Assembly: GCA_017411325.1 (NCBI GenBank)
Contig: JAFQQJ010000020.1
Location: forward strand, 1 to 64,000
DNA length: 64,000 bases
Direction of reading: 5' to 3'
From: Clostridia bacterium
Lineage (GTDB): Bacteria; Bacillota; Clostridia; CAKSNL01; HGM11501
Shown here: positions 3,147-49,827 of the stretch, one piece after another
Numbering within the stretch: position 1 is the first letter of the stretch
How the letters are laid out: each line of letters opens with the position of its first letter
Notes under the pieces: model-generated
Database searches by the model: none
Told to the model about the DNA's origin: nothing
What the model saw: the letters and a program-made list of their open reading frames with translations, nothing else
Position numbers and translations under genes: made by a program

Positions 3147-4224
3147 TGCAAATGAATTTACAAAGGTTCTTTATCCGCCTTTTGAGGAGAGCTTTGATAA
3201 AAGCATACGCAAGTGGCAGGGCTGTCCCACTATTGCTATAACCAAAGGCGGAAGAATATATGCAGGGTGGTATACCGGAGGAAGCAGAGAGCCTCATATA
3301 GATAATTACAATCTGCTCAAATACAGTGATGATTACGGAAAGACCTGGTCCGAGCCGATATTCGTAATACCGGGAAGTCACGAGCATTTAGTGCAGGCCC
3401 TTGACATACAGCTCTGGTGCGCGCCCGACGGCAGATTATTTGTTTTTTGGGTACAGAATAATTTAGAGGAGGCAGGGATTGGCAAGGTTGGTTTTTACTC
3501 CGACGGATATATGTTTCTTGATAAAACCCACGCACAGTGGATGATGGTATGCGATAATCCCGACAGCGTAAATCCTGCATTTTCTGAGCCGAGATGCATA
3601 GATAAGGGCTTTTTACGCTGCAAGCCACTTTGCACCAAAAGCGGAAGATGGATACTCTTTAACTATTCCCAGGACTCAAATAATTATGAATACTCTGTTT
3701 CTGACGATAAAGGAGAAACCTTTACAAGACTTAAGGGAGCAGAAAAAATACCTACTCCTTTTGACGAGAGTATGGCATATCAGCTTAAGGACGGCAGTAT
3801 TAGAATGTTCGCCCGCACATACACGGGAGAGCTTGCAGAAAGCACATCCTTTGATGACGGAGAAACATGGACGCCTTCGATTTCTTCAGGAATTGCCAGC
3901 CCCAACACAAGATTTTTTGTGGCAACGCTGCCTTCGGGAAGTGTGCTCCTCATTAACAATGACCACAAAAAACAAAGAACAAATATGACTGTGTACCTTT
4001 CGGAGGATGACGGAAAGACCTGGAAGTATAAGCGTCTGTTAGATTCTTCTTCGAACACATCCTATCCCGATGTGGATTTATATAATGGAAGAATCTACCT
4101 TATATACGATAAAGAGAGATTACCTAACGGCAAAATTCTGTTTACTTCCTTTACCGAGGATGATATTAAAAATCCTGATTACGAATTTGAGATAAACTGC
4201 ATAAGTCAGGTTGAGCGAATGTGA
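3139..4224 (+). CDS. sialidase-like BNR-repeat hydrolase
   Basis: 361 residues with no signal peptide. Four Asp-box repeats of the S-x-D-x-G-x-T-[WF] type are visible: SDDYGKTW, SDDKGETF, SFDDGETW and SEDDGKTW, so this is a six-bladed beta-propeller of the sialidase/exo-alpha-sialidase superfamily. The start at 3139 overlaps the dgoK stop by eight bases and has a GGGG-type site upstream. Because it is cytoplasmic and coupled to 2-keto-3-deoxy-galactonate genes, it may act on an imported sugar or oligosaccharide rather than on host sialoglycans. The substrate is not known; proteins called sialidases on Asp boxes alone often have other activities. Confidence 0.7.
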   Translation: MSNANEFTKVLYPPFEESFDKSIRKWQGCPTIAITKGGRIYAGWYTGGSREPHIDNYNLLKYSDDYGKTWSEPIFVIPGSHEHLVQALDIQLWCAPDGRLFVFWVQNNLEEAGIGKVGFYSDGYMFLDKTHAQWMMVCDNPDSVNPAFSEPRCIDKGFLRCKPLCTKSGRWILFNYSQDSNNYEYSVSDDKGETFTRLKGAEKIPTPFDESMAYQLKDGSIRMFARTYTGELAESTSFDDGETWTPSISSGIASPNTRFFVATLPSGSVLLINNDHKKQRTNMTVYLSEDDGKTWKYKRLLDSSSNTSYPDVDLYNGRIYLIYDKERLPNGKILFTSFTEDDIKNPDYEFEINCISQVERM

Positions 4225-31469: not shown

Positions 31470-31859
31470 GTGAAAAAAGTAAAAATTGAAGAGCTTAAGG
31501 ATTTTTCGGTTAAAGCACTTGAAAAATCGGGGGTAAGTCACGAGAATGCAGAAATCATTGCTGACGTTTTAATAACCACCGATACCTTCGGCGTTTTAAC
31601 CCACGGCACCAAGAATTTAGGTCAGTACATAGATAAGATGAAGGCAGGCGGATTGGATGCTGCTGCCGAGCCTTCAATTGTAAGAGAAGGTCCTGCCTGG
31701 GCAATTGTAAACGGAAACAAGGCGGCGGGTATGGTTTCCGGATACAAGGCGATGAAGATGGCTATCCAGAAAGCTAAAAAAGTCGGTATTGCATATGTGG
31801 GAGTTAAAAACAGCTGTCACTTCGGTGCAGCAGGCTTCTATGCAAATCTGGCGGCAAAG
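31470..31859 (+). pseudogene. 5' fragment of an LDH2-family dehydrogenase gene
   Basis: The first 130 codons match the N-terminus of the complete LDH2-family gene at 38280-39335 closely (shared TTDTFGVLTHGTKNLGQYID, GPAWAI and SCHFGAAGFYANLAAK), after which the frame runs into an IS256-type element and soon stops. Start is GTG with AAGGAGG upstream. By eye the two copies are roughly 80% alike at DNA level, so this is an older paralogue, not a recent duplication. The 3' part is not found on the far side of the element, so it has been lost by deletion or rearrangement. Confidence 0.85.
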
Positions 31860-33085
31860 AATATTTCAAGCTGTGAGTGGATTTGTCCCCAGTCTTTGCG
31901 CTTGCCTGTCCACTTCTTCGTAATGTCTATCATTGCAAGATATAGCATTTTTAAAAGGCTGTCATCCGTTGGAAATACGCTTTTATTTTTTGTAACCTTC
32001 CGAAGCTGACGGTTAAATCCCTCTATCGCATTCGTTGTGTAAATCAATGTTCTGACCGCCTCCGGATACTTGAAATACGTCGATAAATTAGCCCAATTTG
32101 CCCGCCACGAAATAGCTATTTTAGGATATTTGCTGCTCCATTTTTCATCAAAGCTATCAAGCTCCGAAAGTGCAGTTTGTTCGTCAACCGCCGCATAAAC
32201 CCTCTTCAAATCAGCCATTAAAGCCTTAATATCCTTGTATGATACAAACCTTGTTGTATTGCGGATTTGATGTATTATGCACTGCTGGATTTCCGTTTTG
32301 GGATATACGGCCTCTATTGCGTTTGTAAAGCCAGTCAGCCCATCAATGCAGGCGATCAGTATATCCTCGACACCGCGAGCCTTTATACTGTTTAACACCG
32401 AAAGCCAAAACTTTGCGCTTTCATTTTCGCCAACCCACATTCCGAGGACTTCCTTTTGTCCGTCCATATTGATTCCGATCGCGATATATACAGCCTTTTT
32501 GATAATTTGTCCTTCGCTTCTGACGTGGAAGTGTATGGCGTCCATAAATACAACTGCATAGATTTCTTCAAGCGGTCTTGACTGCCATTCTCGCACTACA
32601 GGCAGTATTTTGTCTGTTATCCGGCTTATGGTTGTATCGGAACATTCCAAACCGTAAATATCCTTGATGTGAGCTTCTATATCGCTTGTGGTCATGCCCT
32701 TTGCATACATAGATATAATTTTTTCTTCAATGTCACCGGTCAGTGTTGTTTGATTTTTCTTTACAAGCTGCGGCTCAAATTCACCGTCTCTGTCTCTCGG
32801 CACTTTGATTTCCGTTTTGCCAAAGCTTGTTTTAAGGGTCTTTTTAGAATATCCGTTACGGCTGTTTTCGCCCTCTTTGTTGCGATAATCATACTTTGTA
32901 TAGCCTAATTCATCGACAAGCTCTCCGTCAAGACCGTTTTCAAGCATTTCTCCGACCATCATCTTAAACACATCTTTCAGGTCATCAAAATTCTTTACAT
33001 CCAACCCTTTCATGATGTTACGCAAATTCTCCTTGCGTTCTTTTTCCGCCGCCCTCTCTTCGGGACTTAATTTGTACCTTGGCAT
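31838..33085 (-). CDS. IS256-family transposase (C-terminal end altered)
   Basis: 415 residues. The DDE triad is complete: VFMDAIHF (Asp), IACIDGLTGF (Asp) and TTNAIEGFNRQLRK (Glu). The N-terminus MPRYKLSPEERAA begins at ATG 33085, after a GGAGG site; the frame could extend to 33124 but that part lies in the leader hairpin. The last residues read QLEIFF followed by AARFA, where family members normally end with EGR-type residues: the final codons and the stop come from the antisense of the truncated dehydrogenase gene. Catalysis may be preserved, but the element lacks its right end. Confidence 0.9.
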   Translation of the reverse strand: MPRYKLSPEERAAEKERKENLRNIMKGLDVKNFDDLKDVFKMMVGEMLENGLDGELVDELGYTKYDYRNKEGENSRNGYSKKTLKTSFGKTEIKVPRDRDGEFEPQLVKKNQTTLTGDIEEKIISMYAKGMTTSDIEAHIKDIYGLECSDTTISRITDKILPVVREWQSRPLEEIYAVVFMDAIHFHVRSEGQIIKKAVYIAIGINMDGQKEVLGMWVGENESAKFWLSVLNSIKARGVEDILIACIDGLTGFTNAIEAVYPKTEIQQCIIHQIRNTTRFVSYKDIKALMADLKRVYAAVDEQTALSELDSFDEKWSSKYPKIAISWRANWANLSTYFKYPEAVRTLIYTTNAIEGFNRQLRKVTKNKSVFPTDDSLLKMLYLAMIDITKKWTGKRKDWGQIHSQLEIFFAARFA

Positions 33086-33090
33086 AATTA

Positions 33091-33135
33091 AAACCTCCAA
33101 AATGATATTTTTATTATATATCATCTTGGAGGTTT
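33091..33135 (-). promoter_or_regulatory. RBS-sequestering stem-loop in the transposase leader
   Basis: Two 18-base arms (33091-33108 and 33118-33135) pair fully with a single G-U; the arm nearer the gene contains the GGAGG ribosome binding site and the other the complementary CCTCC. A long read-through transcript would hide the site. A transcript from the internal promoter starts inside the gene-proximal arm and escapes the fold. Confidence 0.7.
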
Positions 33136-35597: not shown

Positions 35598-36783
35598 TTG
35601 CATTATTTTAAAAAATTGTAGGATCATAGGAGACAGATCTATCCGGGAAGACAGCAGTATTTTGATTCAAAATGGTATTATTGCCGATATTAGTGATATT
35701 GCCGGGTTTGAAGCAAGTGAGTATGCAAAAGTATATGATATGAAGGGTAATTATGTCAGCGCAGGGTTTGTGGATATCCATACGCACGGTGGAGGCGGTG
35801 CTGATTTTATGGACGCGACAGACGATGCGTTCGACACCGCTTTAGGATATCAGCTTGAAAACGGAGTTACGGGGGTGGTTGCAACCTCTCTGACTGCGGC
35901 ATATGAGGATATATGTTGTTTTATGGACAAGGCAAGAGAATATATGGAGGTTCCGCACACCAAGAAGTCAAAGCTTCTTGGTGTGCATTTGGAAGGACCG
36001 TTTATATCTGTGAAAGGCTGCGGCGCACAAAATCCCAAATATCTTATGAATCCGAATAAAGATTCTTACAGCTTTATTATTAAAAACAGAGATATAATCA
36101 AAATAGTTACAATTGCGCCGGAATTGGACACGGACGGGAGCATGACGCGGGAGCTTACTGAAAACGGCATTTTGGTGTCGGGAGGTCATGATGACGGTGC
36201 ATATCCGGAATTTGTTCCTGCATTTAAGTCGGGTTTGAAACACATGACGCATATATATTGTGCAATGTCGGGTTTTGGAACAAAAGCAGGAGTCAGAGAA
36301 ATAGGACTTAGGGAATATGGGCTTATGACAGATAACGTCACCTGTGAAATTATTGCGGATAATATTCATATAACTCCCGAAATGGCAAGGTTTATTTTAA
36401 AGTATAAGGGGGCTGATAATGTTGCGGTGGTATCGGACTCGCTGCGATGCGCCGGTATGCCGGCAGACGGACGCTTATATAATCTGGGGTCAAAATACGA
36501 CAGTGCATCGTTGAAAGTAAAGGTTTCCGACGGGATTGCAATGCTTGCTGATGGCAGTAAGTTTGCCGGAAGCATAACAAGTGTGCATAAAATGGTGAAA
36601 AATTTGATAAATGCCGGTATTCCTGTTGTGGATGCGTTTAAGACGGGAACGTCGGTGCCGGCACGTATTATAGGTGAAAAGAAGATAGGCAGCGTTAAAA
36701 AAGGTTTTGCTGCTGATCTTTGTGAGCTTAATGAAAATTTCGATATTGTTTCGGTCTTTTTGGACGGAAAGAAAGTAAAATAA
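35594..36783 (+). CDS. nagA: N-acetylglucosamine-6-phosphate deacetylase-like, N-terminus apparently frameshifted
   Basis: The amidohydrolase is complete in its core: VDIHTHGGGG, VHLEGPFIS, SGGHDDGAYPEF, HMTHIYCAM and VVSDSLRCAG carry the metal and catalytic residues of NagA. Homologous reading goes back to about 35605 (ILKNCRIIGDRSI), before the first in-frame TTG (35662), but no ATG/GTG/TTG is in frame there. An ATG at 35594, overlapping the previous stop (ATGA) with GAAGG seven bases upstream, is one base out of frame; an extra T in the T4 run at 35606-35609 would join them. Either a sequence error, a mutation, or a rare ATT start. Reaction: removal of acetate from GlcNAc-6-P or a related sugar phosphate. 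Confidence 0.8.
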
Positions 36784-36807
36784 ATTTTATGAAGGGAAAT
36801 GAGCATT

Positions 36808-37596
36808 ATGGAACACAATAAAATTAAGCTTAGAGTTTTAGAAAATGATGATGCAGTCAATTTGGATATGGCGCTTGATATGTTGGCGGAAATTATGAAA
36901 AATAATGAAAGGGGAAAGCGAACAGTATTTATTGTACCGGTTGGACCTACAAAGCAGTATTCGATTTTAGCGGCGATGGTAAATAAGCTTAATATTTCAT
37001 TAAAAAACGTATGGTTTTTCAATATGGACGAGTATCTCATATCTCCGACAGAAGCAATTTCGTCCGAACATTTTCTGAGCTTTAAAAAGCGCATGAATGA
37101 CGAATTTTATGCGCGGGTTGATGAGGCGCTTATAATGCCGAAGGAACAAAGGCTGTTTCCGATTCCGGGAAGAGAAAAGGAATATGATGAGCTTTTAAAA
37201 TCTCTCGGTGGTGCGGATGTGTGCTATGGGGGACTCGGCATTAACGGTCATATTGCGTTTAATGAGGCGGCAGAAAAGGATGATCCGATAACCTGTGAGG
37301 AATTTGCAAATCTCAGCACACGCGTGCTCCCGGTCAGCCGTGAAACAATAGCCATAAACGGAGCCGCATATCTACATGGAGATATTATGGCAATGCCGAA
37401 ATGGTGTATCACAATAGGCATGAAGCAGATAATGGAATCAAAAAGAATTTATTTATCGACAGGTGCGGCATGGCATCCGGGAATATTAAAGCATGTACTT
37501 AACGACAAACCGCAGCCGCAGATACCGTCAACAATTTTGCAAAAACACGGGAACGTATTATTCTGCACAAATAAAAGTATTGCGGAACTGATTTAA
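36808..37596 (+). CDS. NagB-like glucosamine-6-phosphate isomerase/deaminase
   Basis: 262 residues. The NagB/SugarP-isomerase fold shows VPVGPTKQY, FFNMDEYL (the Asp of the E. coli D72 site) and GGLGINGHIAFNEAAE. In E. coli NagB the last motif reads GNDGHIAFNE with D141, H143 and E148; here the His and Glu remain but D141 is replaced by Asn. The enzyme may therefore be slow or act on a different sugar phosphate. ATG 36808 fits the GAAGGG site better than ATG 36799. It follows nagA by 24 bases and completes the deacetylase-deaminase pair. Confidence 0.82.
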   Translation: MEHNKIKLRVLENDDAVNLDMALDMLAEIMKNNERGKRTVFIVPVGPTKQYSILAAMVNKLNISLKNVWFFNMDEYLISPTEAISSEHFLSFKKRMNDEFYARVDEALIMPKEQRLFPIPGREKEYDELLKSLGGADVCYGGLGINGHIAFNEAAEKDDPITCEEFANLSTRVLPVSRETIAINGAAYLHGDIMAMPKWCITIGMKQIMESKRIYLSTGAAWHPGILKHVLNDKPQPQIPSTILQKHGNVLFCTNKSIAELI

Positions 37597-38279: not shown

Positions 38280-39335
38280 ATGAAAAAAGTGCGTCTTGAT
38301 GAACTTAAGGCTTTCTCCGTAAAGGCACTCGTTAAAGTGGGAGTAAGTGAAGAAAATGCAGAAATTATAGCCGATGTTTTAATGACAACTGATACTTTCG
38401 GTGTTTTAACACACGGGACAAAAAATCTGGGGCAGTATATAGATAAAATGAAGGCGGGCGGATTAGATGCTGAAGCCGAGCCATCAATAGTGAGAGAAGG
38501 ACCTGCCTGGGCAATTATAAACGGAAACAAGGCGGCAGGTATGGTGTCCGGCTACAAGGCGATGAAAACGGCAATTGCAAAAGCTAAAAACTGCGGTATT
38601 GCCTATGTGGGCGTTAAAAACAGTTGTCACTTCGGTGCGGCAGGCTTTTATGCAAATCTGGCGGCAAAGGAAGGACTCATAGGCATATCTATGAGTAATG
38701 CCGACCCCGTTATTGCAGTTCCCGGCGGAAGCAAAAAAGCAATCGGTACAAATCCCTTTTCTTTTGCAGCTCCCACGGGTGACGGAAAGAGCGTGTTTTT
38801 AGATATTGCATTAAGTAATGTTGCGGCACTCAAAGTCATTATGGCGCAGGAAAAGAATGAAGAAATTCCCGATACCTGGCTGGTTGATGAAGAGGGCGTT
38901 CCTACGAAGGATGCCTTCAAATTCCCGAAAAATGCAAGCCTTCAGCCCATGGGTGCACACAAGGGCTACGGCCTTGCGGTATTGGTTGAAATCCTTGCCT
39001 CTGTCATAACCGGTGCGGGTATGCTTTCTGAAATTGCAAGCTGGAATTTAGACCTTGCATCCACCAACAATGCAGGTCACGCATTTATCGCAGTTGATGT
39101 TGCCCAGATGCTTGGAACAGATGAATTTAACGCGAGAATGAAGCAAATTTCCGACGAGCTTAGAAACGGTCCCAAGGCAAAGGGCGCAACAAGAATATTT
39201 ATGCCGGGCGAAATGGAATGGGAAAAGAGAGAAAAAGCCCTCGCTTCAGGTGAAATCGAAATTACCGATGCAATGGTGGTATCCCTTACAAAGCTTTCTT
39301 CCGATACAGGCGCGGAAATTAATATTTACGAATAA
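38280..39335 (+). CDS. LDH2/malate dehydrogenase-family NAD(P)-dependent 2-hydroxyacid dehydrogenase
   Basis: 351 residues, typical length. The N-terminal TDTFGVLTHGTKNLGQY region carries the family's substrate-binding His, NSCHFGAAGFYAN the catalytic His, and NPFSFAAPTGDG and PMGAHKGYGLAVLVEIL complete the signature. Family substrates include malate, lactate, ureidoglycolate, sulfolactate and diketo-gulonate, so the 2-hydroxy/2-keto acid used here cannot be named. First gene of the sugar-acid cluster; a broken paralogue lies at 31470. GGAGG site before ATG. The AT-rich upstream region has no promoter I would call with confidence. Confidence 0.87.
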   Translation: MKKVRLDELKAFSVKALVKVGVSEENAEIIADVLMTTDTFGVLTHGTKNLGQYIDKMKAGGLDAEAEPSIVREGPAWAIINGNKAAGMVSGYKAMKTAIAKAKNCGIAYVGVKNSCHFGAAGFYANLAAKEGLIGISMSNADPVIAVPGGSKKAIGTNPFSFAAPTGDGKSVFLDIALSNVAALKVIMAQEKNEEIPDTWLVDEEGVPTKDAFKFPKNASLQPMGAHKGYGLAVLVEILASVITGAGMLSEIASWNLDLASTNNAGHAFIAVDVAQMLGTDEFNARMKQISDELRNGPKAKGATRIFMPGEMEWEKREKALASGEIEITDAMVVSLTKLSSDTGAEINIYE

Positions 39336-39365: not shown

Positions 39366-40019
39366 ATGGATAAAACAATGTACGGTATAATCAAAACAAC
39401 AGCAATCTGCCCCATTATGGTGGCACCCGATCCCGATTTTGCAGCTGATGCGGCAAAGGCAATTGCAGAGGGCGGTCTTCCCGTTTGTGAAGTTCTTCTT
39501 CACAGAGACGAGCATTCCGTTACAAGAATAAAGAACATCGCTAAAAATGCACCCGAGGTAATTGTCGGTGCAGGTACTGTTATATCTTTAAGAGATGCCC
39601 AGGAGGCATTAGACGCCGGTGCAAAATTCTGCGTGGCACCCGGCTTTGTTCCCGAGGTTGTTGAATTCTGCTTAAAGAACAACTTATCCATCCTTCCCGG
39701 ATGCACAACAGCTTCCGAAATTTCAATGGCACTTAACTACGGAATAAACATATTAAAGTTCTTCCCCGTATATCAGATGGGCGGAGTAGACACCCTTTCC
39801 CAGTACTATTACGGCCCCTTCGGTAAGGTTGAGTGGGTTGTAACCGGTGGTCTTAACGGTAAGAACTATTTAGACCTCATCAAGTTCAACAGCGTGCTTG
39901 CGGCAGGCGGCGACTGGATGTTTGCCGAAAACAATGCAATCAACGATAAAAACTACGATGCAATCGTTGAAAATATGAGAAGAACTATAAAGGATTCTCT
40001 CGCTGCAAGAGCGAAATAA
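39366..40019 (+). CDS. KDPG/KHG-type class I aldolase
   Basis: 217 residues. LPVCEVLLHRDE carries the catalytic Glu position, GAGTVISL and APGFVPEV the substrate loops, and ILKFFPVYQMGG the Schiff-base Lys; WVVTGGLN is the phosphate/carboxylate-end loop. It cleaves a 2-keto-3-deoxy acid to pyruvate and an aldehyde. Sequence loops differ from the aldolase at 1540, and no 2-keto-3-deoxy acid kinase is adjacent, so the substrate may be unphosphorylated. GGAG site before the ATG; 30 bases after the dehydrogenase gene. Confidence 0.87.
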   Translation: MDKTMYGIIKTTAICPIMVAPDPDFAADAAKAIAEGGLPVCEVLLHRDEHSVTRIKNIAKNAPEVIVGAGTVISLRDAQEALDAGAKFCVAPGFVPEVVEFCLKNNLSILPGCTTASEISMALNYGINILKFFPVYQMGGVDTLSQYYYGPFGKVEWVVTGGLNGKNYLDLIKFNSVLAAGGDWMFAENNAINDKNYDAIVENMRRTIKDSLAARAK

Positions 40020-40035
40020 GAAAGTGGGGCTTTTT

Positions 40036-40812
40036 ATGAGTTGCTCATTTGATTTTAAGGGTAAAACCGTTCTGATAACAGGTGCCGAGCGGGGAATTGG
40101 TCTTGAAATTGCAAAGGGCTTTGCAAAAAGCGGCGCAAATATTGTTATCGCAGGCATTATGGATGAGGAATTTCCCAATGCCGAAAAGGAAATAACAGCC
40201 CTTGGTGCAGAATGCTTTTGCATTCACACCGATGTGGCGGATGAAGAGTCCGTTATAAATGCGGTAGAAAGCGCCTGGGGCAAGTTTACAAAAATTGATA
40301 TCCTTGTAAATAATGCAGGCATCAACAAGCTTGCACCGGCAGAAGAAATGCCTTTATCTACATGGCAGAGAATTATGGATGTAAACCTTACGGGTACATT
40401 TTTAATGTGCCGTGAGGCGGGACGCAGGATGCTTTCTGCGGGTGGCGGAAACATAGTTAACGTTGCCTCTATGTCAGGGCTTATCGTAAATCCCCTTCCG
40501 CAGACACAGTGCGCATACAACAGCTCCAAGGCGGGCGTTATTATGCTTACAAAGGTGCTTGCCAACGAATGGGCAGAACGTGGCATAAGAGTAAATGCCA
40601 TTGCCCCCGGCTTTACGGAAACACCCCTTACAGCGAAGCGACTTTCCGTGCCCGACGATCCTGCGGTTAAAAAATGGATTGGCGGAACACCTATGGGACG
40701 CGTGGCTCAGCCAGAAGAAATGGTGGGCCTTGTATTATACTTTGCAAGCGACTTATCCACCTTTACAACAGGCACCTGCGTGCCCGTTGACGGCGGATAT
40801 ACAGTATTATAA
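40036..40812 (+). CDS. short-chain dehydrogenase/reductase (SDR)
   Basis: 258 residues. VLITGAERGIGLEIA is the cofactor turn, NNAGINK and ASMSG/YNSSKAG supply the Ser-Tyr-Lys triad, and IAPGFTETPL and PVDGGYTVL close the classical SDR. The best-known relatives are sugar-alcohol or gluconate-type dehydrogenases. Start ATG 40036 is preceded by AGTGGGG; GTG 40024 is also in frame. Within the cluster it probably interconverts a keto and hydroxy group of the sugar acid. Confidence 0.85.
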   Translation: MSCSFDFKGKTVLITGAERGIGLEIAKGFAKSGANIVIAGIMDEEFPNAEKEITALGAECFCIHTDVADEESVINAVESAWGKFTKIDILVNNAGINKLAPAEEMPLSTWQRIMDVNLTGTFLMCREAGRRMLSAGGGNIVNVASMSGLIVNPLPQTQCAYNSSKAGVIMLTKVLANEWAERGIRVNAIAPGFTETPLTAKRLSVPDDPAVKKWIGGTPMGRVAQPEEMVGLVLYFASDLSTFTTGTCVPVDGGYTVL

Positions 40813-40823
40813 GGAGGATAAAA

Positions 40824-41672
40824 ATGAAAAGCGTAAAAGATACTTTCAAAATATATAACGGTGTTGAAATTCCCTGTATGGGACTCGGCACCTGGCAGTC
40901 CCCTGACGAAACGGCGAAAAATGCGGTGCTTGCCGCACTTTCCCACGACTATCGCCTTATTGATACGGCTGCGGCTTACGGCAACGAAAAGGGCGTAGGT
41001 GAGGGAATAAAGGCAAGCGGACTTAAGCGAGAGGAAGTTTTTGTTACCAGCAAGCTCCGTAACGCGGACCACGGCTACAAGGCAACAATGGAGGCTTTCA
41101 GCCTTACAATGGAAAAGCTTGGTCTTGAGTACTTAGACCTCTACCTTATCCACTGGCCCAACCCCATTCAGTACAGAACACACTGGGAAGAGGCAACGGC
41201 CGGAACCTGGAAGGCTTTTGAGGAGCTTTACGAAAAGGGAAAAATCAAGGCGATCGGCATAAGTAACTTCCTTCCTCATCACATTGAAACACTTATGAAA
41301 ACCGCAAAAATAAAGCCTATGGTAAATCAGCTTAAACTATGCCCCGGCGTAACCCAGGACGAAACCGTTGACTATTGCAAAAAGCAGGGTATTGTGGTTG
41401 AAGCATACAGCCCCTTCGGAACCGGTATGATATTCGGCAACGAGGATATGAAAAAGCTTTCCGCAAAATACGGAAAAACAGTTGGTCAGCTTTGCCTCCG
41501 CTGGTGTCTTGAGAAGGATTTTGTTTCCCTTCCCAAGTCGGCAAATCCTATGAGAATAAGGGAAAATGCAGAAATATTTGACTTTGAGCTTTCAAAGGAA
41601 GATGTTGACTTTATATCAAATCTTAAGGGCGTTTGCGGAGAAGCTCCCGACCCCGATAATATAATGTTTTAA
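40824..41672 (+). CDS. aldo/keto reductase
   Basis: 282 residues. The AKR tetrad is present: Asp and Tyr in LIDTAAAYGNE, Lys in VTSKLRN and His in LIHWPNP. GISNF and the C-terminal PKSANPMRIRENA (cofactor 2'-phosphate loop) fit NADPH-dependent AKR of the xylose-reductase/2,5-diketogluconate-reductase group. It could reduce an aldose or the aldehyde released by the aldolase. AGGAGG precedes the ATG; 11 bases after the SDR gene. Confidence 0.88.
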   Translation: MKSVKDTFKIYNGVEIPCMGLGTWQSPDETAKNAVLAALSHDYRLIDTAAAYGNEKGVGEGIKASGLKREEVFVTSKLRNADHGYKATMEAFSLTMEKLGLEYLDLYLIHWPNPIQYRTHWEEATAGTWKAFEELYEKGKIKAIGISNFLPHHIETLMKTAKIKPMVNQLKLCPGVTQDETVDYCKKQGIVVEAYSPFGTGMIFGNEDMKKLSAKYGKTVGQLCLRWCLEKDFVSLPKSANPMRIRENAEIFDFELSKEDVDFISNLKGVCGEAPDPDNIMF

Positions 41673-41683
41673 GAGTTGATTTT

Positions 41684-43147
41684 ATGAGAATTAAAAATAA
41701 GGATGTCTTATCCTCCCACGGTAATACCGAGGGAAGAAAAATCGTAAGTGAGCTTCTTGATGCAGGGCTTGACTCCATCGACCCTTACTTAAGGGTAAAA
41801 AAGCTTATGGAGGTAAAAGAGGGAAATTTAATCTTTCATACAGAGGGCTTTGAAATGAAGGAGGATCCCCATTCCGGTGCACTTTCCTACAATCTTTCTG
41901 ATTTTGACAGAATATTTGTAATCGGTGCGGCAAAGGGGATTCAGAGAGCCGCCCTTGCAATAGAAGAGGTGTTGGGAGATTATCTTACCGAAGGTCACGT
42001 CATAGGAAAGCACGGGGAAGATATTATCTGCAAAAAAATCGGCGTAACCTTGGCAGGTCACCCCGTTCCCGACGAATACTGCATTGAAGGCTGCAGAAAA
42101 ATTGAAGAAATGCTTTCTGATGTCACGGAAAAAGACCTTGTCTTAACCGTTTTTGGCTCGGGCTGCGGCTCCCTTTTCACTTATCCTGCAGAGGGCATAA
42201 GTATGGAAGATATTTCAAGGTTTACACATATGATGCAGATTGAAAAGGGCGTTCCCACAAGCGACTTAAATCAGATAAGAACCCATATTGATCGCTTTAA
42301 GGGCGGAAGAATAACAAGGATGATAGAAAAGGCCACCATAGTCAATATGGTAACGGCGGACCCTTCCAAAATGTCAACCCCGGTTTTAAGGGTAAACTAT
42401 TTTGAAATGCTCCGTCATAACACCTTTTTCCCTACGGTTGCAACGGCATCAACCTATAAAGACTGCCTTGACATCATAAAAAAATGGGATGCCTGGGATG
42501 AAACCCCGGAGTCCATAAAAAACCACCTTTTAGCGGGAGGAAGCCACAACGAAAATATGTCGGTGGAGGAATATGAAAGCTTTAATGCAAGATTTTTCGG
42601 TCTTGTTTTCAAGGATTCCACAATCTATCCTGCGGTAAGGGAAAGGGCAAAGGAGATGGGACTTCCTTGTATAATGCTTTCCGAATATATGGAAGCGGAG
42701 GCAAGGGAAGCAGGCTTTGTGGACGGAAATTTGGCCCTTTGCTGTGAAAGGCTGGGCGAGCCCTTCCGTGGCCCCGTTGTACTTATGTCATCAGGCGAAA
42801 ATGTGGTAACCGTCGGCAAGGAAAGCGGCATCGGCGGAAGAAATCAGGAATATGCCATCGGCGCGGCAATGAAAATTGCAGGAAGCAAAAAGGTTGTAAT
42901 CGGTGCTGTTGATACGGATGGTACCGACGGTCCCGGCGGATTTTCATATCCGGGTGCACCTGAATGTTTATCCGGAGCCGTGGTTGACGGCTATACCTTA
43001 GAAGAAGCGAAAAAAGAAGGAATCAATCTCTGGGATGCGCTTAAAACCCACGGAACAAGCGAGCCCTTGTGGAGACTTGATTCCGGCGTATGGGCGGAAA
43101 AGAGCATTTCGGCTCTTGATCTCAGAATAATTTTGATTGGAGAATAA
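41684..43147 (+). CDS. glycerate 2-kinase (MOFRL/DUF4147 family)
   Basis: 487 residues. The N-terminal DUF4147 domain has FVIGAAKG, VLAGHPVPDE-like TLAGHPVPDE and VFGSGCGSLFTYP; the C-terminal MOFRL domain has GIGGRNQEYA and DTDGTDGPGG. Class II glycerate kinases phosphorylate D-glycerate to 2-phosphoglycerate. This ties the cluster to a route where glyceraldehyde is oxidised to glycerate and re-enters glycolysis at 2-phosphoglycerate. The frame begins 11 bases after the AKR gene. Confidence 0.85.
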   Translation: MRIKNKDVLSSHGNTEGRKIVSELLDAGLDSIDPYLRVKKLMEVKEGNLIFHTEGFEMKEDPHSGALSYNLSDFDRIFVIGAAKGIQRAALAIEEVLGDYLTEGHVIGKHGEDIICKKIGVTLAGHPVPDEYCIEGCRKIEEMLSDVTEKDLVLTVFGSGCGSLFTYPAEGISMEDISRFTHMMQIEKGVPTSDLNQIRTHIDRFKGGRITRMIEKATIVNMVTADPSKMSTPVLRVNYFEMLRHNTFFPTVATASTYKDCLDIIKKWDAWDETPESIKNHLLAGGSHNENMSVEEYESFNARFFGLVFKDSTIYPAVRERAKEMGLPCIMLSEYMEAEAREAGFVDGNLALCCERLGEPFRGPVVLMSSGENVVTVGKESGIGGRNQEYAIGAAMKIAGSKKVVIGAVDTDGTDGPGGFSYPGAPECLSGAVVDGYTLEEAKKEGINLWDALKTHGTSEPLWRLDSGVWAEKSISALDLRIILIGE

Positions 43148-43149
43148 AT

Positions 43150-44451
43150 ATGTACGGTACAATTATTAAATCTGTAAGGGCACACCAGGTTTATACAAAC
43201 CGCGGAAAGCCCGGTGTTGAAGTAATAGTAACCACAGAAAACGGAAGCGAAGGAAGGGCAATGTGCACCTCGGGCGTATCGATTGGTACCCACGAGGTTG
43301 ACTTTACCTTTGACGGCGGCACAAAGTTTGGCGGCAAAGGCGTAACAGGTGCGGCTAAAAGGGTTGAAGAGGTAATCGCTCCCGTAATTATCGGAATGGA
43401 TTCAGCCCGTCAGGCAGAGGTTGATGCGGCAATCCTAGGAATATGCCCCGATGCAAAAATCCGCCTTGGCGGAAATGCGGTTGCGGCAACAAGTGCGGCT
43501 GTGCTTAAAGCAGGTGCAGCATCTCTCGGCATTCCATTATACCGTCATATCGGCGGTGCAGGTGCAATGTATCTTCCGGTTCCCGGTGTTGCAATGGCGG
43601 CAGGGGATGAGCGCTACGGTGGAGGAATCACCACTCCCGGCGGAAAACCTACAATGTCAATTATGGCATACGGCTTTGACAAGTTTTCCGATGCATCTTA
43701 TGCCTGCTGGGAAATTCACACACGCTGGGCGGAAAAAATGAAAAAGCTTTTCGGCGGTCTTCCCAATATCCGCGACTTTATCTCCATTCCTGCGGGAATT
43801 TTCAAAAGCGACAAGGAAATATGGGAGGAAATGCTGAAAACCGTTATTGAAGCGGGATACGAAGGCAAAATCGGCTTCCAGATGGATGTTGCCACAGATA
43901 CATATCACAACAAGGAAGACGATAAGTACTACGGTCTTTTCGATAAGGAGCCCAAGACCAAGGAACAGCTTTACGACTTCTATATGCAGATTATAAAGGA
44001 CTATCCCTTTGTTATAATCGAAGACCCCTTTAACGAGGACGACTATGATACAACTGCCGCATTTACAAAGGATAGCGGAATTCAGATAGTAGGGGATGAC
44101 CTTTTTACCACCAACCCCGAAAGAGTGGCTCACGGAATAAAGAAGGGCGCGGCAAACACCGTTCTTCTCAAAGTTAATCAGGTAGGCTCCATTTCCGAGG
44201 CTCTTGAAATGATACAGTATGCCTATAAGTTCGGCTACGGAATTATGCCGTCCGACAGCCGCGGCGAGGGCGAATCCATTGCAGACTATGCAGTGGGTAT
44301 AAATGCAGGCTCCATCCGTGAAAGTGCCATCGGCGCAAGAGGAAACCGCTTCCTTGAAATCGAGGAAGAGCTTGGAGCATCTGCAAAATTCATCGGTGCA
44401 CGCGGTCTTAAGGGCGAAAGAAACCAGAAGCGTGCCGACGGATTATTATAA
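43150..44451 (+). CDS. enolase-like protein with altered catalytic residues
   Basis: 433 residues, full enolase length and both enolase domains. The metal ligands are kept (Asp246 in GFQMDVATD, Glu291 in IIEDPF, Asp in GDDLFTTN) and so is the Lys of LLKVNQVGS (position 341). By eye, however, the enolase His in the GGxHA loop, the Glu of QEFM and the Glu of GDEGG are absent (AAGDERYGGG, KPTMSI and a SIPAGI region instead), SHRSGET reads PSDSRGEGES, and the Lys near 390 is Arg (SIRES). It is thus probably not a glycolytic enolase but a paralogue with another lyase activity. Only two bases separate it from the kinase gene. Confidence 0.85.
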   Translation: MYGTIIKSVRAHQVYTNRGKPGVEVIVTTENGSEGRAMCTSGVSIGTHEVDFTFDGGTKFGGKGVTGAAKRVEEVIAPVIIGMDSARQAEVDAAILGICPDAKIRLGGNAVAATSAAVLKAGAASLGIPLYRHIGGAGAMYLPVPGVAMAAGDERYGGGITTPGGKPTMSIMAYGFDKFSDASYACWEIHTRWAEKMKKLFGGLPNIRDFISIPAGIFKSDKEIWEEMLKTVIEAGYEGKIGFQMDVATDTYHNKEDDKYYGLFDKEPKTKEQLYDFYMQIIKDYPFVIIEDPFNEDDYDTTAAFTKDSGIQIVGDDLFTTNPERVAHGIKKGAANTVLLKVNQVGSISEALEMIQYAYKFGYGIMPSDSRGEGESIADYAVGINAGSIRESAIGARGNRFLEIEEELGASAKFIGARGLKGERNQKRADGLL

Positions 44452-44462
44452 GGAGGTAGCTT

Positions 44463-45893
44463 ATGTTTAAACAGTATATAAACGGAAAACTGGTTGACGG
44501 TAAGGGCAGGGAAATGCCTGTATATAATCCTGCAACGGGAAAGGTAATTGACTCTGTGGGCTGCGCAGACGCATCTCAGACAAAGGAAGCACTCATAGCG
44601 GCTGCAGAAGCTTTTAAAACCTGGTCAAAAACAAGCGTAAATGAAAGAGCGGCGTGGCTTTACAAGCTTAAGGAGGCCTGCACTGCTGAAAGAGATTATT
44701 TAATCGAGCTTGTCTCATCAGAATCCGGAAGACCGTATGCAGCTGCCTGCGGCGATGTTGACTGGCTCCTTACAAGTCTTTCCTTCTATGCAGAGGAAGC
44801 AAAGAGAATTGAAGGCGAAGTAATTCCTCCTTTAAACGTGGGCGGAAAGCTTAACTATCAGATAATCACAAAACAGCCGGTGGGTGTAACCGTTGGTCAC
44901 CTTGCCTGGAACTATCCTTTAGGTAATGCCAGCATAAAGCTTGCTCCCGCCATCGCATCAGGCTGTACCTGTATTATAAAGCCTTCTTCAGAAACACCCC
45001 TTGCAACACTTTATGTGGGCGTTATCGCAGAAAAGATAGGCTTCCCGAAGGGTGTATTAAACATTCTTTCGGGCCCCTCTTCAGAGGTTGCAAAAACCCT
45101 TAACGAAAGCACCATTCCGAGACTTATTTCATTAATAGGCTCCTACGAAACGGGACTTAAGCTGATGGAGCAGGGCGTAACAAGCTTAAAGAAATATTCT
45201 CTCGAGCTTGGCGGAAACGCTCCCGTTGTGGTTATGCCCGATGCTGACCTTGACGAAACAGCGGCAAACATAGTCGCAAAGAAGGTTGGCTTTGCAGGAC
45301 AGACCTGCGTTAACTATAACAGAATTTATATCCACGAAAGCATTTATGATGTAATGTGCGAAAAGGTTAAAACCGAGCTTTCAAAGGTTAAGCTTGGTTC
45401 CTGGAAGGACGAGGGCTATATTATGGGTCCCGTAATAAACAACGAGGCAAGGGACAGAATGCTTTCCCTTATTGAGGATGCAAAGGAAAAGGGCGCAAAG
45501 CTTGTTATGGGCGGAGAAGTTCCCGAAGAATTTTCAGAAGGAAGCTTTATAACACCTGCGCTTCTTATTGATGTAACTGACGATATACGTGTTTCAAACG
45601 AGGAAATCTTTGGTCCCATCATTCCTCTTCAGCCCTTTAAGACCCTGGATGAGGCAATTGAGAAGAGCAACAACACAATCTTTGGCTTGTCCGCTTATTT
45701 CTTCGGTCACAATGCAAAGGAAATGAGCAGATATTTTGAAAACGTTACCGCAGGCGAATTTTTCGTAAACGGCGGTATCGGAAGCGAATTTTCACCCCAT
45801 TCCGGCGCAAAGCAGTCGGGTATCGGATGCGACAAGTCCAAGCATTCGTTGGAGGAATACTACGATATCAAGTTCCTGTCCATGATACCGTAA
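44463..45893 (+). CDS. NAD(P)-dependent aldehyde dehydrogenase
   Basis: 476 residues. LAWNYPLGNASIKLAPAIA, IIKPSSETPL, SLELGGNAPVVVMP (general-base Glu) and FAGQTCVNYNRIY (catalytic Cys) are the ALDH superfamily set, closest in pattern to succinate-semialdehyde/glycolaldehyde/lactaldehyde dehydrogenases. In this cluster it most likely oxidises the aldehyde released by the aldolase, such as glyceraldehyde to glycerate for the kinase at 41684. AAGGAGGTAGC precedes the ATG. No clear terminator follows, but a new promoter starts at 45927. Confidence 0.9.
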   Translation: MFKQYINGKLVDGKGREMPVYNPATGKVIDSVGCADASQTKEALIAAAEAFKTWSKTSVNERAAWLYKLKEACTAERDYLIELVSSESGRPYAAACGDVDWLLTSLSFYAEEAKRIEGEVIPPLNVGGKLNYQIITKQPVGVTVGHLAWNYPLGNASIKLAPAIASGCTCIIKPSSETPLATLYVGVIAEKIGFPKGVLNILSGPSSEVAKTLNESTIPRLISLIGSYETGLKLMEQGVTSLKKYSLELGGNAPVVVMPDADLDETAANIVAKKVGFAGQTCVNYNRIYIHESIYDVMCEKVKTELSKVKLGSWKDEGYIMGPVINNEARDRMLSLIEDAKEKGAKLVMGGEVPEEFSEGSFITPALLIDVTDDIRVSNEEIFGPIIPLQPFKTLDEAIEKSNNTIFGLSAYFFGHNAKEMSRYFENVTAGEFFVNGGIGSEFSPHSGAKQSGIGCDKSKHSLEEYYDIKFLSMIP

Positions 45894-45969: not shown

Positions 45970-46950
45970 ATGAGCGAAAAGAAGTATGATCTGATAGGCT
46001 TCGGCGATCCCTTTTTGGACCTTGTGCTGAAAATCGACAAGCTTCCCGAAACAAACACCAACTGCCGAATTAATAAATACGGCTTTCAGGGTGGCGGAAA
46101 CGTGCCCACAGCCTGCGTCGCATCGGCAAGACTCGGTGCAAAAACGGCGTTAATCGGTTGTGTGGGGGATGACTTGTTCGGTAAGGTGGGACTTTCCGAC
46201 CTTCAGTATAACAATGTTGACACATCAAAAATGAGTATGCAGAAAGGGAAAAAGAGCAATTTTTCCATCTGTGTGACAGAAACAGCCGTAAACGGTAAGG
46301 AATTTATCAGCACTCCCGGTGACTTTGAGGAAATCAAGGCAGGCGAGCTTGATGAAGAATTCTTCAAGTCCACCCGCATTATGCACGTGGCATTGATTAC
46401 CGACGCTGTGGCAAAGGCATGCGATATGGTTCATTCCGCGGGCGGAAAAATAAGCGTTGATGCCAATTACTACCGTCCCTACACCTATGACTATTACGAT
46501 AAAATCGACATTTTCATAGGCTCCGAAATGTACTATAATGCGTTTTGCGAGGATAAGAAATTAAATCCCGCGGATTTTAAGGAAAATATGAATCTCTTAA
46601 AGAGCTTCGGTCCCGAAATAGTAATCTTTACCTTCGGTGAGGATGGCTGCAGGGGCGTTTATGAGGATAAATATTTTGAAATTCCGGCGTTCTGCGTTGA
46701 TGCGGTTGACACCACCGGTGCGGGGGATGTTTTCCACGGTGCCTTTGATGTATTCTATCTTAAGGGCTTCGATGTGGAAAGAGCGGCACTCTATGCATCC
46801 GGCGTTTCTGCCATAAAATGCACACGTCCCGGCGGAAGAAGCGGAATCCCCACATTAAAAGTACTTGAAAAATTTATGGATAGTGGTATAATAGATTACA
46901 GCGAAATTGATGAAAGAGTAGCCCATTACGATAAAGGAATAACAATTTAG
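45970..46950 (+). CDS. PfkB-family sugar kinase
   Basis: 326 residues, ribokinase fold. IGFGDPFLDLVLKI, GFQGGGNVPTACVASARLG (substrate/GG motif) and VDTTGAGDVFHGAF (ATP/anion hole and catalytic Asp) are present. It phosphorylates a ketose or sugar acid; placed before an isomerase and a class II aldolase, a ketose kinase forming the aldolase substrate is most likely. The substrate is not predictable from the motifs alone. First gene behind an internal promoter. Confidence 0.88.
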   Translation: MSEKKYDLIGFGDPFLDLVLKIDKLPETNTNCRINKYGFQGGGNVPTACVASARLGAKTALIGCVGDDLFGKVGLSDLQYNNVDTSKMSMQKGKKSNFSICVTETAVNGKEFISTPGDFEEIKAGELDEEFFKSTRIMHVALITDAVAKACDMVHSAGGKISVDANYYRPYTYDYYDKIDIFIGSEMYYNAFCEDKKLNPADFKENMNLLKSFGPEIVIFTFGEDGCRGVYEDKYFEIPAFCVDAVDTTGAGDVFHGAFDVFYLKGFDVERAALYASGVSAIKCTRPGGRSGIPTLKVLEKFMDSGIIDYSEIDERVAHYDKGITI

Positions 46951-46960
46951 GAGGTATATT

Positions 46961-48352
46961 ATGCTTGATTACAATGTAAAAATCGGACTTGTTCCCTTAA
47001 GACGTGACTGCACTCCCCGTCCCGGTATCTTTAACTGGGAGGTTGCAGAGGAGAGAGGAAGACAGACTGTTGCCTACATCAAGGAGCATTATGCCACAGA
47101 GCATATAAGCTTTGTTGACCTTAAGGGTGTTATCGACGTTGAAACACTCTGGTCTGAGAACGATGTTGAAAAGGTGGCAGAACACTTTAAAAAGGAAAAG
47201 GTTGACTCCATCGTATTAATCGCCGCAAACTTCGGTAATGAAGAGGCGGCAGGTGCCCTTGCGAAGGAAATGGGACTTCCCGTTATGCTCTGGGGCCCCC
47301 AGGATAACACCTTCTATGCCGACGGCGGAAGACATACAGACTCACAGTGCGGTCTTTTTGGCATAAGCAGACAGCTTTCCAGAAGAAACGTTAAGTTTAC
47401 ATATGTTGAAAACTGCCCCGTTGAATCGGAGATTTTTGCAACCGGTTTAAGAGAATTTGCACAGGTTACCTGTGCCGTTAAGTGCTTCAAGAGTATGAGA
47501 ATCGGTCAGGTTGGTCTTCGTCCGAAGCCCTTCTGCTCCGTTATCTACAACGAAGGCGAGCTTATGGAAAAGTTCGACACCCGTGTTATTCCTATTAACC
47601 TTGCCACATTCAAGGCTAAGTTTGACAAGATTATGGAAGAGCGCAAAGACGAGCTTAAAGCGGGAGCTGCAAAGATACGCGAAATGTATGAAATTGATGC
47701 TGATACAGAGCCTAACCTTGAAAAAATGTGGGCATTTGTATTAATTTACAAGGAGCTTTTTGAAGAATACAAGCTTGATGCAATTTCCGCAGAGTGCTGG
47801 ACAGCAATGCAGCAGCTTTTAGGTGCAATGCCCTGCACATCCTACGGAATTCTGGCTGATATGGGCTATCTCATAAGCTGTGAAACAGATATGCACGCCG
47901 TAATGACTCAGGTGCTCTTAAAGGCACTTACCTTCGGTGAGGCTGTTCCCTTCTTAGGCGAATTTACAACAAGACACCCCGAAGACAGAAATATCGAGCT
48001 TTTATGGCACTGCGGTCCCTTCGGCTACTCGCTCAGAAGAAAGGACGAGCCCTGCTATTCCAAGAATATGAGAGAGTGGTTCCAGGTTAAGGAAGGTCAC
48101 TACACAGTTGCAAGACTTGATCAGGAGCACGGAAACTATTCCATCATCGTGGGCGAGTGCGACAGTGCAGAAGGTCCCTACACCTTCGGTACATATCTCT
48201 GGGCAAAGTTCAATAACCTTCCTCTCTGGGAGAGAAGACTTGTTGAAGGCCCCTACATCCACCACGTAACAGAAATCGAAGGAAGCCTTACAAAGGTACT
48301 TGTTGAAACTATGAAATACTTCCCCGATGTAAAGGTTGAAGTTATTGAATAA
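46961..48352 (+). CDS. L-fucose/L-arabinose isomerase-like protein
   Basis: 463 residues. The overall layout resembles the FucI/AraA superfamily: an N-terminal Rossmann-like domain (VDSIVLIAANFGNEEAAGAL, MLWGPQDN) and a C-terminal domain with acidic/His metal positions in SAECWTAMQ and SCETDMHAVM. It should convert an aldose to a ketose using a divalent metal. Sugar specificity is unclear, and the superfamily includes enzymes for unusual sugars. It lies 10 bases after the PfkB gene with GGAGG before the start. Confidence 0.8.
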   Translation: MLDYNVKIGLVPLRRDCTPRPGIFNWEVAEERGRQTVAYIKEHYATEHISFVDLKGVIDVETLWSENDVEKVAEHFKKEKVDSIVLIAANFGNEEAAGALAKEMGLPVMLWGPQDNTFYADGGRHTDSQCGLFGISRQLSRRNVKFTYVENCPVESEIFATGLREFAQVTCAVKCFKSMRIGQVGLRPKPFCSVIYNEGELMEKFDTRVIPINLATFKAKFDKIMEERKDELKAGAAKIREMYEIDADTEPNLEKMWAFVLIYKELFEEYKLDAISAECWTAMQQLLGAMPCTSYGILADMGYLISCETDMHAVMTQVLLKALTFGEAVPFLGEFTTRHPEDRNIELLWHCGPFGYSLRRKDEPCYSKNMREWFQVKEGHYTVARLDQEHGNYSIIVGECDSAEGPYTFGTYLWAKFNNLPLWERRLVEGPYIHHVTEIEGSLTKVLVETMKYFPDVKVEVIE

Positions 48353-48361
48353 GGAGAAAAA

Positions 48362-49183
48362 ATGAAATACACATTAAAAGAAATACTTGACCTGGCAGAA
48401 AAGGGCGGCTTTGCCGTTCCTGCCTTCAATGTATATAATCTTGAAACATTGATGGGTGTTGTAAACGCCGTAAAGGAAACCGGTGCTCCCGTTATCATTC
48501 AGATGTACAGCAGACTTTTCAATACCGGTACGGGAAAGTTTATGGCTCCCGTTATACTGGACGTTATGAACGATGTGAAAAGCCCCGTCTGCTTCCATCT
48601 TGACCACGGCGCAGGCCTTCCCGAGTGCATAAGAGCTATGCGCTATGGTGCAACAGGCGTTATGATTGATGCATCCACTCTTCCCATCGACGAAAATATC
48701 GCCGAAACAAGAAAGACCGTGGATATCGCGAAAGAAGCATCTGTAAGCGTTGAGGGTGAGCTTGGTCACATCGGCTCCACAAAGGACGAGGTGTGGGACT
48801 CCTACACAACAGTAGAGGATGCCGTAAGATATGTTAATGAAACAGGCGTTGACGCTCTTGCAATTATGGTTGGTACAGCTCACGGAAAGTATGCCAAGGC
48901 TCCCGTTCTTGCAATTGAAAGAATTGCAGAAATACATGAAAATACAAAGGCGCACCTTGTTCTTCACGGCGGATCCGGCGTTCCCGACGATCAGATAAAA
49001 GCGGCAATTGATGCAGGTATCAGAAAGATTAATTTCGGTACAGACGTTTGCTGTTCCTTCATTGAAGCATATAAGGGACTTGATCCTTATTCTGCTCCTC
49101 TTGACGTGGTTATGGCAAAGGCAAGCGAAGCGGTAAAGGAATTTGCAATTGAAAAAATTAAGTTACTTGGAGCGTGTAAGTGA
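48362..49183 (+). CDS. class II fructose/tagatose-bisphosphate-type aldolase
   Basis: 273 residues. FAVPAFNVYNLE, CFHLDHGAG (zinc ligand and catalytic Asp), VEGELGHIGS, MVGTAHGKYAK, LVLHGGSGVPD and RKINFGTDV are the class II aldolase motifs including the zinc His residues and DHAP phosphate site. It cleaves a phosphorylated ketose to DHAP and an aldehyde. Together with the kinase and isomerase it forms a complete isomerase-kinase-aldolase route. Eight bases after the isomerase; it shares the TGATG junction with the next gene. Confidence 0.9.
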   Translation: MKYTLKEILDLAEKGGFAVPAFNVYNLETLMGVVNAVKETGAPVIIQMYSRLFNTGTGKFMAPVILDVMNDVKSPVCFHLDHGAGLPECIRAMRYGATGVMIDASTLPIDENIAETRKTVDIAKEASVSVEGELGHIGSTKDEVWDSYTTVEDAVRYVNETGVDALAIMVGTAHGKYAKAPVLAIERIAEIHENTKAHLVLHGGSGVPDDQIKAAIDAGIRKINFGTDVCCSFIEAYKGLDPYSAPLDVVMAKASEAVKEFAIEKIKLLGACK

Positions 49184-49827
49184 TGCTTGAAAAATTAAAA
49201 AAGGCAAATAAGGATATTGAAATTTTATCCGTTTTCGACGATGCATTTAAAATTTACGGCGAAGTGCTTAAGTACGACACCGCAGAAATCGTGGCAGAAG
49301 GAAAAAAGCTCGAAATGCCCAAGGCTGTTATCTACAAGCCTTCCTTAGATGCATTTGAAAAGCTTTCCGTTACAAAGGAAATCGCCAAAAATGTTTACGG
49401 CTATCTTCCCATGCAGGCAGGCGTTTGCTATGGTCACGCAAGTATGATGAATGCAACCGAATGGCACACCGCAACGGAAATCAATATCGCAATCACCGAT
49501 ATGGTTTTGATTTTAGGTAACAGATGGGATATTGTTGATGGCAAAATCGACTCATCCTCCTTCAGGGCGTTTTTCGTGCCGGAAGGAACCGTGGTTGAGC
49601 TTTATGCAACAACACTTCACTATTGCCCCAGCCAGGTAAGCGATTTTGGTTTTATCTGCGCAGTATTCCTCCCCGAAGGAACAAACACAGCCCTCACGGA
49701 AGAGCCCACAGATAAGCGCATTACCGCTAAAAATAAATGGCTTCTTGCTCACGTTGATAACGAAGCAAAGATAAAGCAGGGCGCAGTTCCCGGAATTACC
49801 GGAATCAATTACGAAATTAAATACTGA
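49183..49827 (+). CDS. DUF4867-like protein
   Basis: 214 residues. It resembles the uncharacterised DUF4867 family: EWHTATEINIAITDMVLILG, then FFVPEGTVVELYATTLHYCP. The His/Glu-containing strands suggest a cupin-like fold with a metal site, possibly a sugar-phosphate epimerase or isomerase, but no activity is established. ATG 49183 shares a base with the aldolase stop (TGATG) and the operon ends at a strong terminator, so it belongs to the kinase-isomerase-aldolase module. Confidence 0.7.
   Translation: MLEKLKKANKDIEILSVFDDAFKIYGEVLKYDTAEIVAEGKKLEMPKAVIYKPSLDAFEKLSVTKEIAKNVYGYLPMQAGVCYGHASMMNATEWHTATEINIAITDMVLILGNRWDIVDGKIDSSSFRAFFVPEGTVVELYATTLHYCPSQVSDFGFICAVFLPEGTNTALTEEPTDKRITAKNKWLLAHVDNEAKIKQGAVPGITGINYEIKY

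Follow-up and report, generated by a model that had tools for sequence, protein, structure and literature searches.

The 64,000-nucleotide window, that is, the whole stretch of DNA analysed here, encodes a paralogue of enolase, ENO*, in which a set of glycolytic residues has been replaced, which falls into a clade apart from canonical enolases and whose genome carries a canonical eno elsewhere; the first-pass annotation had proposed a real non-glycolytic enolase paralogue, and on these grounds we agree. We hold it about evenly probable that ENO*, a member of the enolase subgroup, has been neofunctionalised and is still active, has given up the dehydration of D-2-phosphoglycerate and would use enediolate chemistry with its partner GlyK2, a glycerate-2-kinase homologue, involved in the same step. 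ENO* is probably a sugar-acid enzyme of a new kind, one mistaken for enolase by annotation programs. Its fold and core chemistry are known, and its active site and its pairing with GlyK2 are new.

Few enzymes are known to be as conserved as enolase. If the reading given above is true, ENO* would be the first member with a non-glycolytic reaction in the enolase subgroup, which is presumed to be monofunctional (PMC7246345), and would offer a natural comparison for which residues set substrate and leaving group. In the open-access literature, we found no relevant report of an enolase-like gene adjacent to one for a glycerate kinase, nor of an enolase paralogue without the catalytic residues.

Fold and active site of ENO*

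The Pfam domains Enolase_N (111.5 bits) and Enolase_C (183.1 bits) cover ENO* from end to end, and an AlphaFold model built from 12 homologues (mean pLDDT 74.7, pTM 0.70, with low confidence in the active-site loops) has M. jannaschii enolase 2pa6 as its best fold match (TM 0.85/0.87). Both results bear out the full-length enolase fold that had been read from the sequence. The best PDB matches by sequence and by fold are enolases, and Pfam MR_MLE_C matches a partial stretch only, with 39.5 bits compared with 183 for Enolase_C. ENO* is thus closer to enolase, in sequence and in fold, than to the other subgroups of the superfamily. Against the NCBIfam enolase model TIGR01060, with a curated cut-off of 300 bits, ENO* scored 276.6 bits and two Chloroflexota members of the family scored 308.7 and 326.7 bits, so that at least two members would automatically be annotated eno. 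A second, canonical eno, the search for which had been proposed as a check, is present on contig C12 of the same genome with 636 bits against this model, which rules out ENO* as the only enolase of the genome.

At 34–40% identity, ENO* shares with enolase its length, the three metal ligands, loop-1 Ser44 and the base Lys341. It differs at the catalytic residues His159, Glu168, Glu211 (GDEGG), His373 and Lys396 of enolase and at its phosphate-binding Arg374-Ser375 (yeast numbering). We compared 23 ENO* sequences with 13 canonical enolases in an alignment, column by column. The GGxHA His, the QEF Glu, the GDEGG Glu, the SHRS motif and the IKTGAP Lys occur in all 13 canonical enolases and in none of the 23 ENO* sequences, as had been claimed for the catalytic His/Glu set, and a new conserved set stands in their place (Table 1). 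Within this set, loop 2 carries an insertion of 3–4 residues before Lys166-Pro, and the residue that follows Lys166-Pro is T or S, with N in one degenerate copy. The SHRSGET loop has been replaced, as the first-pass annotation stated, and its SHRS now reads S-D/S/N/G-S-R, with an arginine persisting one position later; the late Lys has likewise been replaced, although it is not simply lost, since the conserved Arg390 stands there. The four core residues said to be kept (three metal ligands and Lys341) are indeed kept, with the correction that the third ligand is Asp316 and that Asp317 is its neighbour, which is kept as well.

A shifted alignment as the source of these differences was rejected because the new residues are fixed in 23 homologues and the flanking motifs align unambiguously, except at the short GDEGG loop. 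As judged from the sequences, the substitutions are a new conserved set and the result neither of chance nor of decay, since the 23 homologues form a clade with its own fixed signature and pairwise dN/dS is low in close relatives. Five basic residues in the set, with Lys341 included, suggest that the substrate may be polyanionic.

Table 1 Genes of the ENO* operon and active-site positions of ENO* in the window.
Feature	Coordinates	Strand	Basis or conservation
Ldh_2-family 2-hydroxyacid dehydrogenase, at the start of the operon	38280..39335	+	PF02615
KHG/KDPG-type class I aldolase, Asp for Ser184 of Eda	39366..40019	+	TIGR01182, above cut-off
Short-chain dehydrogenase, gluconate 5-dehydrogenase-like	40024..40812	+	NF006070, 251.6 bits (cut-off 279)
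Aldo/keto reductase (AKR), 2,5-diketogluconate reductase-like	40824..41672	+	NF008598, 239 bits (cut-off 425)
GlyK2, divergent MOFRL/DUF4147 glycerate-2-kinase homologue, 2 bp upstream of ENO*	41684..43147	+	Pfam DUF4147 and MOFRL
ENO*, enolase-subgroup paralogue, 433 aa	43150..44451	+	Enolase_N and Enolase_C over full length
Arg155-Tyr156, at the position of catalytic-loop His159 (yeast)	43612..43617	+	RY in 21/23 ENO*; HA in 13/13 canonical
Lys166-Pro-Thr168, in place of Gln167-Glu168	43645..43653	+	K-P in 23/23 ENO*; QE in 13/13 canonical
Metal ligand Asp246, kept	43885..43887	+	23/23 ENO*; 13/13 canonical
Metal ligand Glu291, kept	44020..44022	+	22/23 ENO*; the exception, a degenerate Spirochaetota copy, has Gln
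Metal ligand Asp316, kept	44095..44097	+	22/23 ENO*; Ser only in the same degenerate copy
Lys341, equivalent of general base Lys345 (yeast)	44170..44172	+	21/23 ENO*
Ser370-Arg371, in place of SHRS-loop Arg374-Ser375	44257..44262	+	Arg371 in 22/23 ENO*; 0/13 canonical
Arg390, in place of Lys396	44317..44319	+	21/23 ENO*; Lys in 13/13 canonical
Aldehyde dehydrogenase (ALDH)	44463..45893	+	PF00171
PfkB sugar kinase	45970..46950	+	PF00294
Putative sugar isomerase, very distant from SftI	46961..48352	+	Only NCBIfam match SftI, 107.7 bits (cut-off 700)
Class II ketose-bisphosphate-type aldolase	48362..49183	+	TIGR00167, above cut-off
DUF4867 protein, last gene of the operon	49180..49827	+	PF16161; 4-bp overlap with preceding gene

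The ENO* family and its pairing with GlyK2

Relatives of ENO* were found on 14 clostridial contigs and on single contigs of Spirochaetota and Chloroflexota. Profile searches, whose counts include the genome on which each was centred, detected the family in the class (5 of 391 genomes), the phylum (2 of 300), Spirochaetota (2 of 296) and Chloroflexota (2 of 201). The 23 homologues come from Clostridia, another Bacillota order, Spirochaetota and Chloroflexota, and thus from three phyla. The family tree of homologues sharing the substitutions, another check that had been suggested, placed them in one clade, split from the canonical enolases by a branch with 100/100 support. Identity is 74–89% across Clostridia and about 50–57% in the main lineage of the other phyla, and one Chloroflexota genome holds five ENO* copies together with a canonical eno. 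ENO* is under purifying selection, with pairwise dN/dS of about 0.02–0.06 in those close relatives in which dS, which is near saturation, is measurable. A clade of three phyla in which the metal and lysine core is kept and the other catalytic residues are replaced suggests that a true enolase scaffold was repurposed. Plasmid-borne "eno" matches from Sinorhizobium and Selenomonas (~36% identity) were set apart on account of their eno annotation and the absence of a sugar-acid or GlyK context.

Two lineages within the alignment deviate from the common pattern. The two rows with YR instead of RY belong to one sister group of ENO* from two Chloroflexota genomes (L061:3-1451 and L078:5888-7162), which also has SRGD for SRGE; the L061 gene lies above the NCBIfam enolase cut-off. 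Both Spirochaetota genomes found carry tandem ENO* pairs (L044:2071-4697 and L074:8921-11520). In each pair, Lys341 and Arg390 are missing from the second copy, as are Glu291 and Asp316 in the case of L044. Loss of a metal ligand or of Lys341 is confined to these second copies, which may be pseudoenzyme subunits of a heteromer.

In the window, ENO* belongs to a sugar-acid operon of 11 genes on one strand with intergenic gaps of -4 to 76 bp, and neither Pfam nor NCBIfam profiles revealed a recognisable dehydratase other than ENO* among the 11, in line with what had been noted at first pass. Of the clostridial contigs, 12 are of sufficient length to reveal the gene order, and in these the genes for the Ldh_2 dehydrogenase, KDPG-type aldolase, AKR, GlyK2, ENO* and ALDH occur as a group; in each of the 14 clostridial loci, the gene directly upstream of ENO* is GlyK2. 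In the other lineages the neighbouring sugar genes differ from those of the clostridial operon. Of the 8 catalytic loci outside Clostridia, 5 (L074, L075, L076, L061 and L063) have a GlyK homologue that adjoins ENO* or its tandem copy; none adjoins it in the Chloroflexota catalytic loci L062, L077 and L079, and the L044 locus is too short to show whether one does.

In an alignment with the MOFRL glycerate kinases 1x3l and 2b8n, the GlyK2 of the window retains Lys, Asp and Arg of the catalytic site of the class II glycerate 2-kinase TM1585. The ENO*-associated GlyK2 subgroup departs from the class II enzymes in its GGGS motif, in the loop that follows the catalytic Asp (except in the L075 member) and in an insert of ~13 residues that two canonical clostridial glycerate kinases do not have; four of the five GlyK homologues next to ENO* outside Clostridia belong to this insert-bearing subgroup, and the one in L063 has no insert. 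Among 79 relatives, GlyK2-type genes occur only in the two genomes with ENO*. No other MOFRL kinase was found in the genome of the window, which encodes a class I glycerate kinase elsewhere (478 bits). Given this kinase and the canonical eno, neither GlyK2 nor ENO* is needed for the conversion of glycerate to PEP. Because GlyK2 is remodelled and an ordinary class I glycerate kinase is present, GlyK2 and ENO* look like specialised counterparts of the enzymes that convert glycerate via 2-phosphoglycerate (2-PG) to PEP. That GlyK2 is the one partner kept across phyla, and is remodelled in a genome with a class I kinase elsewhere, suggests that its place is just before ENO* and that phosphorylation of glycerate in the last part of the pathway is not its only role.

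The pockets of two further operon enzymes bear on the product. The KDPG-type aldolase keeps the Schiff-base Lys and has GGDW in all operonic homologues compared with GGSW in Eda, so that Asp replaces Ser184, which in E. coli Eda contacts the phosphate. Absent from the ALDH is the pair of Arg residues with which SSADH/SLADH bind acidic aldehydes. Acid-aldehyde dehydrogenases have either Arg171/Arg289 or a His/Asn pair (PMC10599462), and at these positions the ALDH homologues examined all have a hydrophobic residue and Gly/Thr. As the aldolase has Asp for Ser184 and the ALDH is without the acid-binding Arg pair, the two pockets suggest a fit to an unphosphorylated 2-keto-3-deoxy acid and a neutral aldehyde.

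Proposed reaction and alternative explanations

The data show the fold, residue pattern and conservation of ENO*, its operon, its pairing with GlyK2 and the canonical counterparts of both in the genome; that it is catalytically active, which type of reaction it performs on which substrate, and in what order the steps follow, we infer. The carboxylate of an alpha-hydroxy acid would be held on two Mg ions, as in enolase, and Lys341 would take the alpha proton to give an enediolate, while the remainder of the pocket (Arg155, Lys166, Thr/Ser168, Arg371 and Arg390) would have been rebuilt for another substrate. A beta group would then leave, most likely by beta-elimination, to yield a 2-keto-3-deoxy acid or its enol-phosphate. 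GlyK2 would most likely take part in this step by adding a phosphate to the 2-OH of the sugar acid, much as 2-phosphoglycerate is supplied to enolase by glycerate kinase. With the gene set of the clostridial operon, the KDPG-type aldolase would cleave the ENO* product to pyruvate and a neutral aldehyde, and the latter would pass to the ALDH. Somewhat short of an even chance, we tentatively propose that a glycerate kinase and an enolase were duplicated into a two-enzyme module, GlyK2 then ENO*, for ATP-dependent beta-elimination on a sugar acid, which, if true, would be a new type of pathway.

In favour of a sugar-acid substrate, the Spirochaetota GlyK-ENO* pair sits among sugar-acid genes, the L074 cluster encoding an MR_MLE enzyme, a 2-hydroxyacid dehydrogenase, a GarD-like protein, an FAA hydrolase and a TRAP transporter. 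The GD_AH protein of this cluster was considered as SuyB and rejected, its sole NCBIfam match being galactarate dehydratase (149 bits, cut-off 731). Against the kinase-lyase pairing stand the three Chloroflexota loci without an adjacent insert-bearing GlyK2 and the insert-free GlyK of L063. The role of the acid that would drive out the beta-OH cannot yet be assigned to any ENO* residue, and the enzyme to dephosphorylate the enol-phosphate, required if GlyK2 phosphorylates the 2-OH, was not seen in the operon. ENO* resembles the sugar-acid dehydratases of the MR, ManD, GlucD and GalD subgroups in its sugar-acid gene context and would share their enediolate chemistry and possibly their overall reaction, from sugar acid to 2-keto-3-deoxy acid, but it belongs to a different subgroup and has different acid/base residues. 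An epimerase would also fit: enzymes of the MLE subgroup (cycloisomerases and dipeptide epimerases) have lysines on barrel strands 2 and 6, and, although ENO* belongs to a different subgroup, a similar two-lysine arrangement is conceivable if its acquired Lys166, near strand 2 to judge from the sequence, sits opposite Lys341.

The idea raised at first pass, that ENO* alone dehydrates an unphosphorylated aldonate, is plausible but unproven, and we consider it rather unlikely. In such a non-phosphorylative Entner-Doudoroff pathway, the 2-keto-3-deoxy acid would be cleaved by the aldolase to pyruvate and glyceraldehyde, the ALDH would form glycerate, and GlyK2 would serve only to make 2-phosphoglycerate. 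The gene content suits each step, as do an aldolase without the Ser184 of Eda and an ALDH with a neutral pocket, and 2-PG is the product of class II glycerate kinases in the branched Entner-Doudoroff pathway (PMC2063504). Three points speak against it: the remodelling of GlyK2 and its inheritance with ENO* even in loci that have no aldolase or ALDH nearby, the ordinary class I glycerate kinase of the genome, and the five basic residues, which suit a phosphate better than a polyol tail. That ENO* is a non-catalytic paralogue with a regulatory or structural role is improbable. Its glycolytic catalytic residues are lost and the second Spirochaetota copies are likely pseudoenzymes, but the ENO* of the window sits in a catabolic operon and has lost neither Lys341 nor any metal ligand, and its new polar set is invariant, none of which a pseudoenzyme would need. 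It is distinctly improbable that ENO* performs the enolase reaction on a different stereoisomer or analogue, such as L-2-phosphoglycerate made by GlyK2 from L-glycerate, to form PEP; GlyK2-ENO* would be the exact counterpart of glycerate kinase-enolase, and a ketose-1-phosphate aldolase and ALDH could supply L-glycerate, but inversion at C2 should move the base to the other face, whereas Lys341 is kept.

A sulfosugar pathway was followed up because of matches to YihV and SftI. GlyK2 would phosphorylate 3-sulfolactate or glycerate-3-sulfate, supplied by a sulfo-EMP-like operon, and ENO* would expel sulfite or sulfate to give PEP, which would account for the lack of a kept acid catalyst. The top PDB match of the PfkB kinase is sulfofructose kinase (105.7 bits, next match 82), the isomerase matches only SftI, the best PDB matches of the Ldh_2 protein are malate and L-sulfolactate dehydrogenases, and the isomerase-kinase-class II aldolase-ALDH layout resembles sulfo-EMP2 (PMC12890257). 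A divergent NagB-like neighbour gene also points this way. The residues of ALDH and PfkB weaken the case: the ALDH has neither the Arg pair nor its His/Asn alternative, and the sulfonate-binding positions of YihV are not kept in the PfkB alignment. Furthermore, the SftI score is far below its cut-off, SqiK of sulfo-EMP2 is a PF00365 protein and not PfkB (PMC10599462), and no gene for sulfite export or reduction was recognised among the neighbours examined. We therefore regard the sulfosugar explanation as very improbable.

Other genes around the ENO* loci

The putative isomerase of the operon matches no Pfam family and, by sequence, no PDB entry. Upstream of the operon (35662-37596), the window carries NagA-like and very divergent NagB-like genes, relatives of which follow the operon in L034 and occur in its vicinity in L043. 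A possible glycosaminoglycan reading is based on these genes near three loci and on a PL8 lyase in L040; such genes are not constant among the ENO* loci. At 31470-33124, the window holds a second, truncated copy of the operon Ldh_2 dehydrogenase, identical in 115 of the first 131 residues, which ends where an oppositely oriented transposase-like ORF (31838-33124) starts. Apart from the ENO* operon, the window also contains, at 1540-4224, a second gene of the KHG/KDPG-aldolase family together with a sugar-kinase-like and a sialidase-like gene, the latter two assigned by eye only.
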